Shown one piece after another: positions 2,000-61,808 of a stretch of 64,000 bases of DNA. The DNA is from Gemmatimonadota bacterium (GTDB lineage Bacteria > Gemmatimonadota > Gemmatimonadetes > Gemmatimonadales > GWC2-71-9). Every line of letters begins with the position of its first letter. Position 1 is the stretch's first letter. Under the pieces are notes generated by a model. That model had not been told where the DNA came from. It saw nothing but the letters and a program-made list of their open reading frames with translations, and ran no database searches. The translations under genes were made by a program, and so were the position numbers. The DNA is taken from the NCBI GenBank assembly GCA_040388535.1, contig JAZKBR010000002.1, positions 520,485 to 584,484 on the forward strand, given 5' to 3'.

Positions 2000-2121
2000 G
2001 ATGCGCGGCGTCGAGTTGCACCGGGCGTCACGCCGTGGGCTCCCTCGCCGCGGCTCACCTGGCCCGACCCCGCGACGAGAGTTGGAGATCGAAGCTATCC
2101 AAGGATGCGCGGGGCAGGCTC

Positions 2122-2551
2122 CGCGTCGAGCTGGCGACATTAGAGCCGGTGCGCGGGACTGCGCTAGGCCGCTCCGAGGGACCCACGACGCGACGCCCGC
2201 GAATTTCCTGGCAAACAGAAAGAGGAACGGGGCGAGGCGTGAGGGGCCGTGGGAGGAGGATCAATAGGGAGCGCATCCGTAGCCGGCGCTCGTTGCGCCG
2301 GCGGGCGACCCGCGAAGACGAGCCGCCGAACCGCGCACGGGCAGCGTGCGCGGCGGCGGACTCGAGCGGGTCGCGGATGCGCGGAATTTGATCCGACGAC
2401 AGCGGCCTCTCGCGCTGAGCCCCGCCGCGCGGCCGAGTTTCCGTCGCAGGAGAGATCTGCGCCGCACGAGGCGCGGCGCGAGCAAACTCCATGCGTCGCG
2501 GGTGACATCGGTGCCGCGCGAGCGCGGCACCCACATAGGAGCAACAGCCTA
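2122..2551 (+). repeat. Composite dispersed repeat, copy 1 (modules A, B and tail)
   Basis: Module A (about 2122-2189) contains GAGCTGGCGACATTAGAGC, shared with copies at 22661-22760 and 25655-25758. Module B (about 2244-2397) begins GGGCCGTGGGAGGAGGATCA and carries an 8-bp hairpin (2282-2289 with 2295-2302) and a nested 70-nt hairpin (2305-2313/2366-2374; 2320-2328/2354-2363 with one bulge; 2331-2339/2345-2353). The tail (2510-2551) has a perfect 10-bp-arm palindrome with a GA loop, and its outer end stops three bases from the stop codon of the neighbouring minus-strand gene. Module B is nearly identical to 28598-28757; the tail is nearly identical to 61662-61690. Confidence 0.85.
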
Positions 2552-3403: not shown

Positions 3404-5100
3404 AGTTTCTTCTGCTTGAGCTGCCGGACCGCGTGATCCACGGCACGCGCCGTGAGCGCCATGTACGTCAGCGACGGATTGACGCAGCTCGACGACGCCA
3501 TCGCGGCACCATCGGTGACATACACATTGGGGACGTCCCAGAGCTGGTTCCACTTATTTAACACCGAGCTCTTCGGGCTTCGTCCCATCCGCGCCGTCCC
3601 CATCTCGTGATTGGTCTGCCCCATCGGCGGCGGTGCGCCGCGGTTGGCCACCACGTTCTTCACGCCGGCAGCCTCGAGCATTTCCGCCGCGGAATCGGCC
3701 ATCTCGCGTTGCAGGGCAATTTCGTTGTCACGCCACTTCGCCGAGATCCTGACGCCCGGAATTCCCCACGCGTCCTTCACGGCAGGATCGATCTGCATCC
3801 GGTTCTCAGGATTCGGCAGGCATTCGGCAAAGCCCCCCAACGAGAAGTTCCAGCCACCGACACCGCGCTGGGCGTGCTTGAACTCGGCGCCGAACCCCGG
3901 GCGATTGATCGCCGAGCCCCAGAGTGGCCCACGCCCAGTTGCGCCGCCCTGGAATCCAAAGCCGCGGATGAACTTCGGATCGGGCTTCTTCGGATCGAGG
4001 TTGTGGTGACGCGGGATGTAGATGCCATTGGGGCGGCGGCCGAACGAGGTCTTGTCGTCGAGCCCTTCGACGCGACCGCTCGCGCCGGATCCCTTGATGT
4101 GATCCATGAGGTTGCGACCGAGCTGGTCGCTGGAATTGCCGAGACCGTGCGGATGGCTGCGGGTCGCGCTGTTCATCAGGATCCGGGCCGACTCGAGCGA
4201 TGAGGCGCAGAGGAAGACCAGCGGCGCCTTGAACTCGATCGCCTGCTTGCTCTCGGCGTCAATGACCCGGACCCCGGTCGCACGACGGGTCTGTTCGTTG
4301 TACATCACCGAGTGCACCACCGAGAACGGCCGGATGGTGCAGCGACCGGTCTTCATTGCCGCCGGCAGTGTGGCGTGCACCGAATTGAAATACGAGCCGG
4401 TGGTGCAACCGCGCGAGCAGGAATCGCAGTAGTGACACGGCGCACGCCCATTGAGTGGCGCGGTGAGTACGGCGGTGCGCCCGATGGTCATCACCCGGGT
4501 GGTGCCGTAGGCCCTCGCAAGGCCGGCCTTCACCTGTTCTTCGGCGCAACTCATTTGCATTGCAGGCTGGAAATGCGAGTCGGGAAGGTAGGAGAGGCCA
4601 AGTGCTTCGCCAGAGATGCCGACGAACTTCTCGACGTACTCGTACCAGGGTGCGATGTCGGCGTAGCGAATTGGCCAGTCGACACCAACGCCGTCGCGAA
4701 GATTGGCCTCGAAGTCGAGGTCGCTCCAGCGATAGACCTGGCGGCCCCAGAGAATGGAGCGGCCGCCGAGCACCCGTGAGCGGAGCCAGGAGAACTGCGA
4801 ACCTTCGCTGAGCGTGTATGGGTGTTCGCGGTCGTCGATGAAGAATTGTTTGGTGTCTTCGCCGAAGCCGACCGAGCGGCGCTGAATGGCGAACTTCTCG
4901 GCGGTTTCCTTCGGGTCATTGAGCAGGCGGTAGGGAAAGTCCGAGGCCGGCGCGGCCATCAGGTAGTCGCGCTCGGGGGTGATCATCCGCCCGGCCTCGA
5001 GCACCAGGGTGCGGAGGCCGTGCTCGGCGAGTTCCTTGGCGGCCCAGCCGCCCGACATGCCGGAACCGACGACGATGGCGTCGTACGAGGGGAGTGTCAT
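3400..5100 (-). CDS. GMC family FAD-dependent sugar/alcohol oxidoreductase
   Basis: 566 aa. The N-terminal Rossmann FAD motif is GSGMSGGWAAKEL (residues 12-24) followed by VLEAG. The GMC C-terminus has TNHEMG (catalytic His about 498) and VNPSLTYMALTARA (Asn about 541). A cysteine cluster CHYCDSCSRGC (C222, C225, C228, C232) contains the C-x5-C-x3-C spacing known to hold a 3Fe-4S cluster in bacterial FAD-glucose dehydrogenases, plus one extra Cys. There is no signal peptide; family members are often exported by riding on a Tat-signal small subunit. Its start codon overlaps a GTCATCCTGAGCG repeat. It is a full-length paralog of the 6092-7789 product but has no small-subunit gene directly beside it. 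Confidence 0.93.
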   Translation of the reverse strand: MTLPSYDAIVVGSGMSGGWAAKELAEHGLRTLVLEAGRMITPERDYLMAAPASDFPYRLLNDPKETAEKFAIQRRSVGFGEDTKQFFIDDREHPYTLSEGSQFSWLRSRVLGGRSILWGRQVYRWSDLDFEANLRDGVGVDWPIRYADIAPWYEYVEKFVGISGEALGLSYLPDSHFQPAMQMSCAEEQVKAGLARAYGTTRVMTIGRTAVLTAPLNGRAPCHYCDSCSRGCTTGSYFNSVHATLPAAMKTGRCTIRPFSVVHSVMYNEQTRRATGVRVIDAESKQAIEFKAPLVFLCASSLESARILMNSATRSHPHGLGNSSDQLGRNLMDHIKGSGASGRVEGLDDKTSFGRRPNGIYIPRHHNLDPKKPDPKFIRGFGFQGGATGRGPLWGSAINRPGFGAEFKHAQRGVGGWNFSLGGFAECLPNPENRMQIDPAVKDAWGIPGVRISAKWRDNEIALQREMADSAAEMLEAAGVKNVVANRGAPPPMGQTNHEMGTARMGRSPKSSVLNKWNQLWDVPNVYVTDGAAMASSSCVNPSLTYMALTARAVDHAVRQLKQKKL

Positions 5101-5225
5101 CCTGAGCGGAGCAGCCCGCAGGGCTGCGCAGCCGAAGGAGCTGGTCTATCCGTCGAGGTGGATCCCTTCACGCCAGACTCCGCTCCTTCGACTTCGCCCG
5201 CTGCGCGGGCTTCGCTCAGGATGAC
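5096..5225. repeat. Inverted pair of GTCATCCTGAGCG elements
   Basis: Two copies face each other: 13-bp perfect outer arms at 5096-5108 and 5213-5225. Each copy has its own inner hairpin (for example CCCGC/GCGGG within the right copy, 5184-5225). The left arm includes the CAT that is the GMC start codon (5098-5100 on the minus strand). The pair fills most of the 154-bp gap between the GMC gene and the upstream isomerase gene, leaving little room for a normal promoter or ribosome-binding site. Confidence 0.8.
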
Positions 5226-5254
5226 AACGCCCATCGCCCATCGCCCACCAATTC

Positions 5255-6091: not shown

Positions 6092-7789
6092 CTAGAGCTC
6101 CTTCCGGTTCAGGGCGCGGACGGCGTAGTCTGCCGCGCGAGCCGTGAACGCCATATAGGTGATCGACGGGTTCTGACACGCTGAAGACGCCATGGCGGCG
6201 CCATCGGTCACAAAGACGTTCTTCGAATCCCAGTGCTGATTCCACTTGTTGAGCACCGAGGTCTTGGGATCCTTCCCCATCCGGGCGCCGCCCATCTCGT
6301 GAATCGTGAGCCCCGGGGCGGTGTGGCTGTTGTAGGTCGTGACATTGGTGACACCGGCGGCCTCGAGCATTTCGGCGGCCTGAGTCATCGCATCCTGCTG
6401 CATCTTGAGCTCGTTCTCCCGCCACTGCACGTCGATGTGCAGCACCGGCACGCCCCAGCGGTCGACCTTGTCGGGGTTGAGGCTCACCCGATTGTCGACG
6501 TTGGGCAGGCACTCGCCGAAGCCGCCCAGCGACATCCCCCAGCCACCATACTCCGGCTGCTTGAGCGCATTCTTGAAGTCGGCGCCGAAGCCCGGCGTCG
6601 AGGTACCGCGCCCCCACCCTGACACCGACCGACCGCCACCGCCCTGGTAGGCGTAGCCGCGCAGGAAGTCGGGATGCTGGTCGGTGACGTTGCGGAAGCG
6701 AGCGAGGTAGACGCCGTTCGGTCGCGACCCGTAGGTGGTCTTGTCGAGAAAGCCCGGCACCTTCCCGCCGGCCCCGGCCTGCATCGTGTGATCCATCACA
6801 TAGCGCCCGAGGACGCCGCTGTTGCCGCCGAGCCCTTCGGGATGCGAACGGCTCTTCGAGTTGAGCAGAATGCGCGTCGATTCGAGGGCCGAGCAGTTGA
6901 GGAAGACGATCTTCGAGTTGAACTCGAGTGTCTCCATCGTCTGGCCATCAACGACACGCACGCCGGTGACTTTTCCCTGCTCTTCATTCCAGACCAGCGA
7001 GTGCACCACGCTGTACGGACGAATCGTGCAGCGCCCCGTCGCGAAGGCATCCTTGAGTGTGGTCTGCACAGAATTGAAGTACGCTGCGGTGGTGCAGCCG
7101 CGATGACAGGCATCACAGTAGTGACAGGCCGCGCGACCGTTGTGGGCGACCGAGAGATTCGCCGTCCGTCCGATGGTGAGCACCCGACTGCCACTGTATT
7201 TCGTCTTGATGCCGTCGCGCACCCACTGCTCGGCGCAGCTCATCTGCATCGGTGGCAGGAAGGGGCCATCGGGAAGCTGGGGCAGGCCGAGCTTTTCACC
7301 GGAGATGCCGGCGTAGCCCTCGACGTAGTCATACCAGGGCGCGATGTCCTTGTAGCGCACCGGCCAGTCGGTGCCGTGACCATCCTTCGCGTTGGCGCCG
7401 AAATCGAGATCGCTCCAGCGATAACACTGACGGCCCCACATGATCGACTTGCCACCCATCTGCCGACCGCGGATCCAGTCGAACGGCTTGCCGTCGGCGG
7501 TAGTGTACGGGTTGTCGACGTCGTCGACGAAGAATTGCGTCGCGCCTTCGTCGCAGGCGTAGCACTTTCGCTGCACCGACTGCCGCGCGGTGAGCTTGCG
7601 GACATCGCCGAGGTAGCGATAGTCGAACTCGAAGGCGGGAGCATTCATCAGGAAGTCGCGCGCGGGATCAATGCTCCGGCCGGCTTCGAGAATCAGGACG
7701 TTGAGACCCTTCTCGCTCAACTCCTTGGCCGCCCAGCCGCCGCTGATGCCGGAGCCGATCACGATCGCGTCGTACGGTGCGCGCGCCAT
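6092..7789 (-). CDS. GMC family FAD-dependent oxidoreductase, large subunit
   Basis: 565 aa. The start is the ATG at 7789 (MARAPYDAIVIGSGISGG); the frame stays open further upstream but that part overlaps the small-subunit gene out of frame. FAD motif at residues 11-23; cysteine cluster CHYCDACHRGC at C222, C225, C228 and C232, as in the 3400-5100 paralog, plus an additional C76-x2-C79 (KCYACDEG). The C-terminal GMC region is IHEMGGARMG followed by CQNPSITYMAF. The small-subunit stop and this start share a base (TAATG), so they are co-translated and probably form a heteromeric dehydrogenase exported through the partner's Tat signal. The electron acceptor is not encoded next to it. Confidence 0.94.
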   Translation of the reverse strand: MARAPYDAIVIGSGISGGWAAKELSEKGLNVLILEAGRSIDPARDFLMNAPAFEFDYRYLGDVRKLTARQSVQRKCYACDEGATQFFVDDVDNPYTTADGKPFDWIRGRQMGGKSIMWGRQCYRWSDLDFGANAKDGHGTDWPVRYKDIAPWYDYVEGYAGISGEKLGLPQLPDGPFLPPMQMSCAEQWVRDGIKTKYSGSRVLTIGRTANLSVAHNGRAACHYCDACHRGCTTAAYFNSVQTTLKDAFATGRCTIRPYSVVHSLVWNEEQGKVTGVRVVDGQTMETLEFNSKIVFLNCSALESTRILLNSKSRSHPEGLGGNSGVLGRYVMDHTMQAGAGGKVPGFLDKTTYGSRPNGVYLARFRNVTDQHPDFLRGYAYQGGGGRSVSGWGRGTSTPGFGADFKNALKQPEYGGWGMSLGGFGECLPNVDNRVSLNPDKVDRWGVPVLHIDVQWRENELKMQQDAMTQAAEMLEAAGVTNVTTYNSHTAPGLTIHEMGGARMGKDPKTSVLNKWNQHWDSKNVFVTDGAAMASSACQNPSITYMAFTARAADYAVRALNRKEL

Positions 7790-22564: not shown

Positions 22565-22660
22565 GCTCGCTCCCGCTGGCGGTGGACCCTTCAAAGCTAC
22601 AGCGGTTGGAACGGAGTGTCCGCTATGTGTGCGTTTGCAAGGGGCGAGGGGTGTTGCATC

Positions 22661-22760
22661 GTGGGTGCCTCGCAGCAGCCTTGGAGGCGCCGCGCACCAG
22701 CTCTAATGTCGCCAGCTCGAACCGCCGTCGGGACTCCGTTGGGCTGCGGAGAGGCAGCCC
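22661..22760 (-). repeat. Composite dispersed repeat, copy 2 (module A only)
   Basis: Read on the minus strand this 100-bp stretch matches 25655-25758 closely, including GGAGTCCCGACGGCGGTTCG and GAGCTGGCGACATTAGAGC, and the shared end GAGGCACCCAC. It fills most of the 206-bp gap between the DUF4015 gene stop (22771) and the BMP lipoprotein start. Module B is absent. Confidence 0.85.
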
Positions 22761-22770
22761 GCGGCGATCG

Positions 22771-23844
22771 CTAGGGCTTCGCGCTCGCGAGCTTCACGCC
22801 CGCTTCGATCGACGAGTAGATCCCCTTCGGGTTCCAGAAGAGATACTCCTTGATGCCGAGATCGCGGGCGGCCCGGATCTGGGCGGCGATCTGTTCGGGG
22901 CCGTAGTGCGTGGTGCGATCGACCCATGGCGCGTCGAAGGCCTGCAGAAAGGGGAAGATCTTCCCGGGCTTCTTGCCAGCATCGATCAGCGCCTGGCGGC
23001 GCTTGAGTCCGAGCGTGAGCGAACCGTGCACGGTCTTGTAAGGGAATGCATTCGGATGATTGGCGCCCTTCGGACCATAGTAGTGCGAGGGATAGGCCAT
23101 CGGGATCAGGGTCGGGCTCGACTGAATGAGCTTCTCCCATTGCTGGTAGACACCCGAGCCATCGGGCACGTGCATCGACCACGCAAAGAGCGCTGCCGAC
23201 ATCGCGATTCCCTTTCCGTTCAGCTGCTTCTCTGCGGCCTTGAGGAAACCGGCGACGGCATCACTCGGATCACCCGCCGGTCCGGGATAGACCTGTCGAC
23301 CGATCTTGTGTGACGGCTCCGGAGTGCGCACGTAATCCCACATCACTTCATCGACGCCCTGCGCTCCGGCATCGAGGGCGATGGCGATGTTGTAGTTCCA
23401 CGCGCCCGTGGATGTTGGTGAGAGCCACGCGTGACCACTCTGATTGCGCCAGAGCCCACCGCCCTTCTCGTTCTTGATGGCCCAGTCAGGGTGCGCTTCG
23501 GCCGCACCACCATCATTGAACGTGACGGCGCGTCCCATCACATAGAGCCCGGCCTTGTGCAGTTCGCCGACGATCCAGGTCAGGTCGGCGAGATGTTTCG
23601 CGCCGCCGCCACTCGACGGACGAAAGGTGGTCCCTTCCTCGGTCTTGATGTCGATGACCCAGGTATTGAGTCCGGCGCGCGACGACAACTCGATCAGCTT
23701 CGCGCGGGTTGCCGGTGTGCGCAGCGCGCCCATCGGCACGTAGATGCCGTGCACGAATTCGGGTCGCGGGACTTTTGCGATCTGGGCCGGGAGCGATTGG
23801 GTTGCAGCAAGTGTCAGCGCAAGGAGGAGTGCGCGCATGGTCAT
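22771..23844 (-). CDS. Secreted putative glycoside hydrolase, DUF4015
   Basis: 357 aa with a signal peptide (MRALLLALTLAATQSLPAQ). The TIM-barrel DUF4015 family is recognised from HGIYVPMGALRTPATRAKLIELSSRAGLNTWVIDIKTEEGT, LYVMGRAVTFNDGGAAEAHPDWAIKNEKGG, YNIAIALDAGAQGVDEVMWDYVRTPE (acidic pair Asp-Glu plus Asp) and AQIRAARDLGIKEYLFWNPKGIY. Related to GH13-like putative polysaccharide hydrolases; no substrate known. The ATG overlaps the ParB gene's TGA by 4 bp, so a secreted enzyme is translationally coupled to chromosome partitioning genes. Confidence 0.9.
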   Translation of the reverse strand: MTMRALLLALTLAATQSLPAQIAKVPRPEFVHGIYVPMGALRTPATRAKLIELSSRAGLNTWVIDIKTEEGTTFRPSSGGGAKHLADLTWIVGELHKAGLYVMGRAVTFNDGGAAEAHPDWAIKNEKGGGLWRNQSGHAWLSPTSTGAWNYNIAIALDAGAQGVDEVMWDYVRTPEPSHKIGRQVYPGPAGDPSDAVAGFLKAAEKQLNGKGIAMSAALFAWSMHVPDGSGVYQQWEKLIQSSPTLIPMAYPSHYYGPKGANHPNAFPYKTVHGSLTLGLKRRQALIDAGKKPGKIFPFLQAFDAPWVDRTTHYGPEQIAAQIRAARDLGIKEYLFWNPKGIYSSIEAGVKLASAKP

Positions 23845-25585: not shown

Positions 25586-25601
25586 TGTTTCACGTGAAAC
25601 G
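25586..25601. promoter_or_regulatory. parS site 1
   Basis: TGTTTCACGTGAAACG matches the widely conserved parS consensus TGTTTCACGTGAAACA at 15 of 16 positions, about 70 bp upstream of parA. ParB nucleation site; may also bear on parA expression because of its position. Confidence 0.93.
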
Positions 25602-25654
25602 GCGTAGGAGCGAGTAAACGTATCGCCAGGCCGGCATTCGCAGGCGTTGCTCGT

Positions 25655-25972
25655 GGGCTGTCTCTCCGCAGCCCAGCGGAGTCCCGACGGCGGTTCGAGC
25701 TGGCGACATTAGAGCTGGTGCGCGGCGCCTCCGCGAGTCTGCTCCGAGGCACCCACGACTCAACGCCCGCGAACCCGTCCGAGCATGTGACGAGAAGCAC
25801 TTCCTCGGTGGCGCTCGGCGCGGGGGCCGTGGGAGGAGAATCAGTAGGGAGCGCGTCCGCAGCCGGCGCTCCTCGCGCCGGCGAGCGATTCGCAGGAGCG
25901 ACCGCCGAGCGGGCGGCAGCGCCCGCCGCCGGTCGCGACCGAATCGCGGACGCGCGGATCCTGATTCGACGA
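25655..25972 (+). repeat. Composite dispersed repeat, copy 3 (modules A and B) between parS sites
   Basis: Module A (25655-25758) is about 90% like the reverse complement of 22661-22760. Module B (about 25823-25972) starts GGGCCGTGGGAGGAGAATCA and has the 8-bp hairpin (25862-25869 with 25875-25882) and a nested hairpin: 25885-25892/25940-25947, 25898-25904/25930-25936 and 25909-25915/25920-25926, all perfect. The arm sequences differ from copy 1 (for example GCGATTCG/CGAATCGC instead of GCGACCCG/CGGGTCGC) yet pairing is kept. Confidence 0.85.
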
Positions 25973-26028
25973 ACGCGGCTCCCGCGCCGAGCGCCTGCGC
26001 AGGCAAGCCGCTGGCGGTGCCTGCGCAG

Positions 26029-26044
26029 TGTTTCACGTGAAACA
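26029..26044. promoter_or_regulatory. parS site 2
   Basis: TGTTTCACGTGAAACA is a perfect 16-bp match to the parS consensus, 443 bp from site 1. The two sites bracket copy 3 of the composite repeat. Confidence 0.95.
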
Positions 26045-28438: not shown

Positions 28439-28597
28439 TGCGGAGATCTCCGTGAGTGAGACAGCCTCGGAACTTAACGAGAAGCGAGAAGCGGGAAGCG
28501 AGGGGCGACCCCGCGGCTGTCATCCTGAGCCACCCGTAGCTGCCGTGCTTGCGCGGCAGTCCTTTGCAGGCGGGGCTCGGTCGGGGGAAGCCGTCCT

Positions 28598-28757
28598 CGT
28601 CGGATCAAATCCCGCGCGTTCGCGACCCGATCGAGTCCGCCGCCGGGCACGCTGCCCGTGCCCGGTTCGGCGGCTCGTCTTCGCGGGTCGCCCGCCGGCG
28701 CCAACAGCGCCGGCTGCGAACGCGCTCCCTATTGATCCTCCTCTGACCGCCCCCCCG
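28598..28757 (-). repeat. Composite dispersed repeat, copy 4 (module B)
   Basis: Read on the minus strand it is nearly identical to 2244-2397, from GAGGAGGATCAATAGGGAGC to GATTTGATCCGACGA. Nested hairpin: 28622-28629/28684-28691 outer and 28643-28651/28657-28665 inner, both perfect. In the inner stem the fourth pair is G-C where copy 1 has C-G. Module A is absent. Confidence 0.87.
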
Positions 28758-28796
28758 CACCGAGCCCCCATCCTCTCGGCCTGACCTGGCGCCCAC

Positions 28797-58593: not shown

Positions 58594-58980
58594 GGCGGGT
58601 AGGATGCGATGATCGCGGTTCGGGGCAACCCGGATCGAGGAAAGTCCGAGCTCCACAGGGCAGATCGCCAGGTAACGCCTGGGCGCCGCAAGGCGACGGA
58701 CAGGGCAACAGAGAGCAGACCGCCGATGACCCGGTGCACAAGCATCGGGCACAGGTAAGGGTGAAACGGTGGGGTAAGAGCCCACCGCTCCTCGTGCAAG
58801 CGAGGGGGCACGGTAACCCCCGGTCGGAGCAAGGCCAAATAGGCGGCGAGGTGCGGCCCGCACCGTTAACAGCCGCGGGTAGGCTGCTCGAGGTGGTCGG
58901 CGACGACCATCCCAGATAGATGATCATCCGGTGCCGTGCAAACGACACCGAACAGAACTCGGCTTACAGTCTTACCCGTG
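58594..58980 (+). ncRNA. rnpB: RNase P RNA, bacterial class A
   Basis: Universally conserved core present: GAGGAAAGTCCGAGCTCCAC, followed by ACAGGGCAG, GGGTGAAACGGTG-type P8/P9 region (TAAGGGTGAAACGGTGGGG), GGTAAGAGCCCACCG, GGCCAAATAGGCGG and, near the 3' end, ACAGAACTCGGCTTAC. P1 forms from CGGGTAGGA (58596-58604) and TCTTACCCG (58970-58978) with one G-U, which fixes both ends to within a few bases. Catalytic RNA of RNase P, which matures the 5' ends of tRNAs. A hairpin follows at 58980-59006. Confidence 0.96.
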
Positions 58981-59006
58981 CCGCGTCGCCTTCACGGAGA
59001 CGCGGC
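58980..59006 (+). terminator. Hairpin behind rnpB
   Basis: Perfect 8-bp stem GCCGCGTC (58980-58987) and GACGCGGC (58999-59006) followed by GAAAGC, without a T-run. Probable transcript end or processing barrier for rnpB. Confidence 0.55.
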
Positions 59007-60797: not shown

Positions 60798-61665
60798 GCC
60801 GCTAACGCGCACCCGAAAGATCATCCTCGGCGTCTTTGCGGCGTCGGGGCTTTTTCTGTTGTGGCTGTTCGCGGTGTGGCCACCCCCGGTCTGGTACGCA
60901 GCGCACTTCCCGCACGAGACCGCGTTCATGGCGATGCGTCGTGACGCCGACCCGGCCGCCGCCGAAAAGCGCCAGTACGACCCGGTGGAGATGAGCCAGA
61001 TCGCGCCGGTGATGAAGCGAGCGGTAATGATCGGGGAGGACAACCGGTTCTACGAGCACGGCGGCTTCGACTTTGTCGAGATGCGGAAGGCGGTGGGATA
61101 TCCGCGCGACTCCTTTGCCCTGGGCAATTCTCGCGATCGGGCAGACCTCGCGCGGGCAGTGAGGCGAAGCTGGAGCAAACGGGGCTCGGTCCGCGGGGCC
61201 AGCACGATCACGCAACAGCTCGCGAAGAATCTCTACCTCTCGCCCTCGCGGAATCCGCTGCGCAAGGTGAAAGAGGCGGTCACCGCCTGGCGGCTCGAGT
61301 TCTGGCTCTCCAAGGACCGGATCATGGAGCTATACCTCAACACCGCTGAGATGGGCGATGAGGTCTGGGGGGTCGAGGCGGCCTCCCAGCGCTACTTCAG
61401 GCGGTCGGCCCGCGGGCTTTCGCCGGAACAGGCCGCCACGCTGGCCGCCGTGCTTCCATTTCCGCGTAGTAGCAATCCAAACTATCGCTCTGGTCGGATG
61501 AACTGGAGGAGGAACCTGATCCTTCGTCGCCTGCGGGGCGAAAAGGTGGAGGTGCCGGTGGAGGAGACCGACCAGCCGGCAGATATTCCGTCGCCGATTC
61601 CGGATCCTGCGCGGCCGGACAGCCAGGTGATCCCACCCGCACCGCCGGATTCGATTCCCAAGTAG
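60781..61665 (+). CDS. mtgA: Monofunctional biosynthetic peptidoglycan transglycosylase
   Basis: 294 aa. N-terminal TM anchor KIILGVFAASGLFLLWLFAVW. GT51 domain: VMIGEDNRFYEHGGFDFVEMRKA (catalytic Glu), RGASTITQQLAKNLYLSPSRNPLRKVKEAVTAWRLEFWLSKDRIMELYLNTAEMGDEVWGVEAASQRYF and LSPEQAATLAAVLPFPRSSNP. The C-terminal tail is Pro-rich and no transpeptidase domain is present, so it polymerises glycan strands only. Overlaps the lipoprotein gene by 17 bp. Its TAG stop lies inside the tail of a dispersed repeat (61662-61690). Confidence 0.93.
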   Translation: MPSGPRPLTRTRKIILGVFAASGLFLLWLFAVWPPPVWYAAHFPHETAFMAMRRDADPAAAEKRQYDPVEMSQIAPVMKRAVMIGEDNRFYEHGGFDFVEMRKAVGYPRDSFALGNSRDRADLARAVRRSWSKRGSVRGASTITQQLAKNLYLSPSRNPLRKVKEAVTAWRLEFWLSKDRIMELYLNTAEMGDEVWGVEAASQRYFRRSARGLSPEQAATLAAVLPFPRSSNPNYRSGRMNWRRNLILRRLRGEKVEVPVEETDQPADIPSPIPDPARPDSQVIPPAPPDSIPK

Positions 61666-61753
61666 GCTGTTGCCCCTATGTGGGTGCCGCGCCGGCGCCA
61701 GCAGCGTCGGCTATGGATGCGCTCCCTACTGATCCTCCTCTGACGGCCCCCCG
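61662..61753 (-). repeat. Composite dispersed repeat, copy 5 (module B start joined to tail)
   Basis: Read on the minus strand: GGGCCGTCAGAGGAGGATCA, the first hairpin of module B (one mismatch in the stem) and then directly the tail CGCGGCACCCACATAGG ending GCAACAGCCTAC. Compared with copy 1 the nested hairpin and all DNA between it and the tail are missing. The tail includes the TAG stop codon of mtgA. Confidence 0.82.
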
Positions 61754-61808
61754 CACCGCGCCCCTTTCCTCTCTGTTCCCCGCGAATCTCCATAGCACGA
61801 CAAGTACA

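Follow-up and report, generated by a model that had tools for sequence, protein, structure and literature searches.

The 64,000-nucleotide stretch analysed here (the window; contig JAZKBR010000002.1 of a Gemmatimonadota bacterium) contains several copies of a repeat, module B, and raises the question of whether this repeat is kept as a folded molecule, on which strand, and whether it belongs to the host as an RNA gene or moves. A previous sequence-only reading of the window had described three copies whose paired arms had changed together, had taken this as a sign of selection on folded RNA or single-stranded DNA, and had named no function. The three copies were all recovered, one of them on the minus strand (the strand had been left unstated), and they are listed with the neighbouring elements in Table 1. 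The evidence presented below favours a repeat that is mobile and intergenic over an RNA gene of the host.

Alignment of copy 1 and the other window copies with nine further full copies from the same genome (the source genome) revealed that module B is the core of an intergenic, non-coding element of 155-205 bp between its outer stems; in a few copies, automatic calling of the terminal stem ran on into flanking DNA and gave 238-263 nt, and these lengths were excluded. On one strand, the element forms a rod that contains a three-way junction. From the outside inwards, the rod consists of P1, which is long, the short P2, and P3 (GCGCGTCC/GGACGCGC), followed by the junction with hairpin P4 and the arm P5-P7. 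In the copies of the source genome P4 has 8 bp and a variable loop of 4-5 nt. The rod carries two purine-rich internal loops, UAGGGA facing GGAAU or GGAUC and GAGGA facing GACG, and the unpaired UAGGGA is kept across species. Two subfamilies exist in the source genome, and their main difference lies in P6-P7. The folding of copy 1 is beyond chance, with -153 kcal/mol against -99.4 (sd 4.0) in dinucleotide shuffles (z = -13.3; 0 of 200 shuffles as good).

Table 1. Positions of module B, its parts and module A copies in the window
Feature	Position	Strand	Remarks
B copy 1, both outer stems included	2228..2424	+	197 bp
P3 5' arm GCGCATCC, copy 1	2271..2278	+	partner GGATGCGC at 2375-2382
P4 hairpin GCCGGCGC-TCGTT-GCGCCGGC, copy 1	2282..2302	+	loop 2290-2294
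P5-P7 arm, copy 1	2305..2374	+	P6/P7 hairpin nested inside P5
P5, copy 1	2305-2312, 2367-2374	+	GCGACCCG pairs with CGGGTCGC
B copy between parA and ABC-2 permease gene	25810..25995	+	186 bp; syntenic congener site without copy
B copy between ABC ATPase gene and 90-aa ORF	28572..28768	-	197 bp
Decayed B copy, 5' half (P1-P4), fused to a different hairpin repeat	61682..61777	-	model match 61590-61750
Module A copy, diverged, adjoining B copy 1	2024..2197	-	wobble-tolerant strand minus
Module A copy lying upstream of B at 25810	25643..25767	-	wobble-tolerant strand minus, opposite to B
Module A copy without B	22650..22772	+	

Several details of the sequence-only reading hold in the window copies, namely the perfect 8-bp hairpin GCCGGCGC/GCGCCGGC with loops tcgtt, tcctc and tgttg, the paired-stem change from GCGACCCG/CGGGTCGC to GCGATTCG/CGAATCGC, the inner pair that is C-G in copy 1 and G-C in its copy 4, and the inner arm of the copy at 25810, which is wholly different and pairs nonetheless. 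The two-part structure placed at 2244-2397 was right as to the hairpins and too small as to the element, since P1, P2 and P3 enclose both of them. The conserved apical GGCAG-like loop did not survive the comparison with more copies: other copies in the source genome have GGGA, GGTA, GGAC or GGGC, and the loops of congeners are entirely different. The 8-bp stem of P4 covaries between species and is invariant in 12 of 12 copies of the source genome, so that within this genome the hairpin contributes no covariation.

The source genome (3.72 Mb) contains 12 full dispersed copies and several fragments detectable by blastn. A blastn search with a window copy in 40 relatives returned nothing beyond scraps. 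The sequence-only reading had proposed a covariance-model search over relatives, and such a model, built from the 12 copies, identified copies with different stem sequences in two of nine congeners; after extension with these, it found seven copies in one congener (G009) and two in another (G001), nine additional copies in total. No copy was detected with the model in the other seven congeners, nor any convincing one in other genomes of the family and phylum, and among 395 phylum genomes matches at E 1e-4 occurred only in the same three B-bearing genomes; absence elsewhere is not proven by these figures because large searches filter more strictly and many of the congeners are fragmented MAGs. 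A weak match in genome G013 (E 5e-4) was judged from its alignment to be due to chance. The single motif match in GTDB, in an Oscillospiraceae MAG, did not match the model, and motif matches in viral contigs failed it as well. Carriage by plasmids or phages was likewise set aside, one copy of the source genome compared with plasmids and one congener copy compared with phages having given no match. In Rfam, no family matched B in the window at the gathering threshold, and a scan of six loci with E up to 10 yielded no match that exceeded it, and B was rejected as a member of a known RNA family. Decayed copies comprise the half copy of the window and one copy in G001 (contig C61). Three copies of G009 lie within 5.4 kb in one orientation and with similar flanks (C8:1398079-1403442), probably as a result of segmental duplication. 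A third repeat, made up of a hairpin (GGTGCCGCGC...GCGCGGCACC) and CCACATAGGAGCAACAGCC, occurs in the window at 61590-61690, fused to the half B copy, and at 2510-2552, 3' of B copy 1.

Covariation was then evaluated over 45 pairs of the fold. In the copies of the source genome alone, 6 of the 45 pairs had changed on both sides, with 95.0% of cells paired, a value that 0 of 500 shuffles attained. With 16 copies from three species the number rose to 24 of 45, still with 95% of cells pairing; changes on both sides affected 70 cells, compared with 19.6 in shuffles, and the covariation score was 0.297, compared with 0.129 after shuffling (0 of 500 as high) and at most 0.069 with slid partners. The nulls are these shuffles, which ignore relatedness, and the slid partners, and the three-species alignment was fitted to the covariance model and hence leans towards it; an artefact is nevertheless unlikely because the effect is large and the wobble test described below is independent of it. 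G-U intermediates are present among the copies of the three species. Two changes are of another kind: the whole P6-P7 arm was replaced between the subfamilies of the source genome with pairing still complete, and an adjacent double-pair change from TT/AA to CC/GG appears in two copies with intermediates absent. The fold, and not the sequence of the stems, is kept between species on one strand.

To assign the strand, folding was done with G-U pairs forbidden, and every single mismatch with stem pairs on both sides was recorded. Module B had 21 G.T and 1 A.C among these in-stem mismatches, corresponding in our own grouping to about 10 distinct G.T events vs 1 A.C (p = 0.012 against 1:1). Module A, written on B's strand, showed the reverse, with 20 A.C and 1 G.T, or 11 A.C vs 1 G.T in distinct contexts (p = 0.006 against 1:1), and the two asymmetries differed on distinct events with a Fisher p of 1e-4. 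These p values should be read with the facts that the distinct events were partly judged by hand, that the test was devised after the alignments had been seen rather than planned beforehand, and that kinship of the copies lowers the effective sample size. Since adjacent A and B elements have opposite asymmetries, the pattern cannot stem from a strand bias of mutation in the region, and the strand-specific wobble implies that each element is tolerated, or propagated, in the form of one folded strand. Selection therefore acts on the folded single strand of B, be it RNA or single-stranded DNA, between which the test does not choose, as both tolerate G.U/G.T. Together with the covariation across species, the asymmetry supports the selection on a folded molecule proposed in the sequence-only reading. 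Because B is read on the strand given here and A on its complement, the two do not form a single folded transcript. The opposite asymmetry of two adjacent families thus reveals both single-strand selection and the strand concerned, and the same count is applicable to any palindromic repeat family.

Module A is present in about 27 copies in the source genome, with one weak match in one congener. It also covaries, and its wobble-tolerant strand contains a GGA/GGA internal loop. It often flanks B, and in contig C7 the two form an A-B-A array whose A copies are identical. Some contigs end inside A or B copies, indicating that the assembly was broken at such arrays.

The copies of B examined in the source genome all lie between predicted genes. 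Their neighbours are unrelated (parA, an ABC transporter, sugar isomerase-like, UPRTase, DHQ synthase and sigma factor genes, among others), and no common theme was found among the flanking genes. The parA-permease intergenic region measures about 640 bp in the source genome vs 136-470 bp in syntenic congeners, and the ATPase-ORF region 428 bp vs 9-196 bp (230 bp or more shorter); G009 has no B element at either site. The clearly shorter state of both regions in syntenic congeners indicates that the insertions there are lineage-specific. The gaps could in principle result from independent losses; several relatives share the short state, however. Copies occupy species-specific places, with only one site common to two species, G009 and G001, next to a gene that we take from its C-terminus to be cysS (cysteinyl-tRNA synthetase). 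The G009 and G001 copies at this site are not mutual closest relatives by blastn; the G001 copy on contig C5 nests among G009 copies (support 0.97) at ~87-88% identity, and the DNA of the shared gene flank is ~74% identical between the two species. No target-site duplication was found in 17 copies (best end repeat of 4 nt or less), and no larger element with B ends in the source genome that might act as autonomous partner. The ends of B are inverted repeats whose sequence differs completely between subfamilies and species. The dispersal and the site data are more readily explained by presumed transposition of a mobile element than by a host RNA gene that has been conserved.

We consider it probable (roughly 60%) that B is the core of a self-contained mobile element whose folded strand is recognised in trans, and that selection for mobility keeps the fold. 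A factor supplied in trans would recognise the folded single strand, either as single-stranded DNA at the replication fork or as a transcript, would do so through the internal loops, and would then move or copy the element; selection for this mobility would keep the arms complementary, and template switching could supply many of the paired changes. Template switching (quasi-palindrome correction), in which one arm is copied from the other during replication, might also be proposed to explain the pairing by itself, without selection on the fold. It is a documented mechanism for RNA hairpins (PMC8794818), and the complete replacement of P6-P7 and the double change without intermediates are what it would produce; given this resemblance, the caution about conversion voiced in the sequence-only reading stands. 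As a full account it is nonetheless unlikely, since it predicts no strand-specific excess of G.T over A.C, whereas the asymmetries of B and A are strong and opposite, unpaired internal loops would tend to be lost under it, whereas UAGGGA is kept across species, and G-U intermediates exist. It probably contributes the whole-arm and adjacent double changes.

The same conserved fold and strand-specific wobble would also be expected if each copy were a host regulatory RNA, or a polar site organising the chromosome, present in many copies. The copy shared by G009 and G001 beside the putative cysS and an orientation that is partly polar around the origin speak for such a role. It appears improbable, however, because no conserved sequence that could be a promoter lies outside P1, B is mostly antisense to its co-directional neighbours, sites are, with that one exception, not common between species, B went undetected in seven of nine congeners, and module A lacks such polarity. 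In both contig C2 of the source genome and contig C8 of G009, copies tend to be + to the left and - to the right of the parA region, a suggestive pattern. A replication-polar orientation on C2 was rejected as a conclusion and retained as a mere lead, as the GC skew of the source genome flips near 460-495 kb and not at 547 kb; about 13 of 15 copies, duplicates not collapsed, accord with this skew. Near 910-930 kb of C2 the skew turns from positive to negative, perhaps through a large inversion. The remaining alternative is a classical MITE, in which a DDE transposase reads the terminal inverted repeats in double-stranded DNA and the internal fold plays no part. In its size, its position between genes and its inverted ends B matches bacterial MITEs (PMC2229807; PMC10969869), but this explanation seems very doubtful in view of the missing target-site duplication, of ends that differ completely where a transposase site would be conserved, and of an internal fold conserved on one strand.

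Regarding the factor that would act on the folded strand, the resident families tested were Y1 transposases and reverse transcriptases. A Y1 transposase or RAYT is an unlikely mobiliser, there being no Y1 match in G009 with its seven copies; the RAYT of the source genome is flanked by unrelated REPs of its own. A reverse transcriptase (group II intron or retron) is also unlikely, as it is absent from all three B-bearing genomes. The RAYT-like Y1 transposase lies at C2:739707-740051, with REP-like repeats on both sides, and a second, weaker Y1 match at C1:422502. It is conceivable, if unlikely, that A and B are two mobile families read as folded single strands by one enzyme through their shared GGA-type internal loops. 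If true, the route by which A and B are mobilised would be neither a Y1 transposase, nor a reverse transcriptase, nor a DDE transposase reading terminal inverted repeats. How most small structured bacterial repeats move is a long-standing question; in this case structure can be told apart from strand and from species distribution, and knowing the strand means that excision or binding assays specific to one strand could test the route.

In comparison with known repeats, B is best read as MITE-like in behaviour. It is short, non-coding, dispersed and multi-copy, with empty sites in relatives at two places. Part of the formal MITE test failed, given that its inverted ends vary between subfamilies instead of matching those of an autonomous element; with neither such a partner nor a target-site duplication found, B is not a MITE by definition. 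Bacterial MITE-like repeats (ERIC/IRU, Correia/NEMIS, RUP, YPAL, CIR), whose mobiliser is mostly unknown, are likewise ~100-200 bp long, intergenic, non-coding, highly base-paired and dispersed (PMC2229807). B differs from them in lacking a target-site duplication and a conserved terminal repeat sequence, in branching at a three-way junction where they form one long stem, and in the strand-specific wobble and cross-species covariation demonstrated for it. REP/BIME/REPIN sequences, associated with TnpA_REP (RAYT), are palindromic and intergenic like B, and their mobilisation is thought to involve the folded single strand (PMC3116915, PMC8266576); REPs are described as 20-40 bp long with GTAG or similar tags (PMC3733652). 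B, at 155-205 bp, is no such tagged palindrome, and no Y1 gene of the TnpA_REP type accompanies it in G009. The 92 stem-loop sequence families of Cozzuto et al. (2008) each have a common predicted fold and are mostly intergenic, as is B (PMC2267715); B differs in having been traced across species by covariation and the strand test. Integron attC R'/R'' boxes (RYYYAAC...GTTRRRY) were not seen by eye in the copies of the source genome.

Other features were observed in the window. Two parS-like sites flank the A and B elements beside parA, at 25587-25600 and 26029-26044 (GTTTCACGTGAAAC and TGTTTCACGTGAAACA), and G009, G008, G002 and G001 have one parS-like site each in the same intergenic region. 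An intergenic repeat of the CCTGAGCGAAG...CAGTCGAAGGACCT type occurs at 1953-1996 and 5184-5227 (~91% identical), with similar sequence in G009 flanks. Positions 58596-58982 encode a bacterial RNase P RNA of class A (RF00010, 290.9 bits). Finally, the neighbouring coding stretches 3425-5087 and 6117-7776 share 66% identity over 1.7 kb and represent an old tandem duplication.
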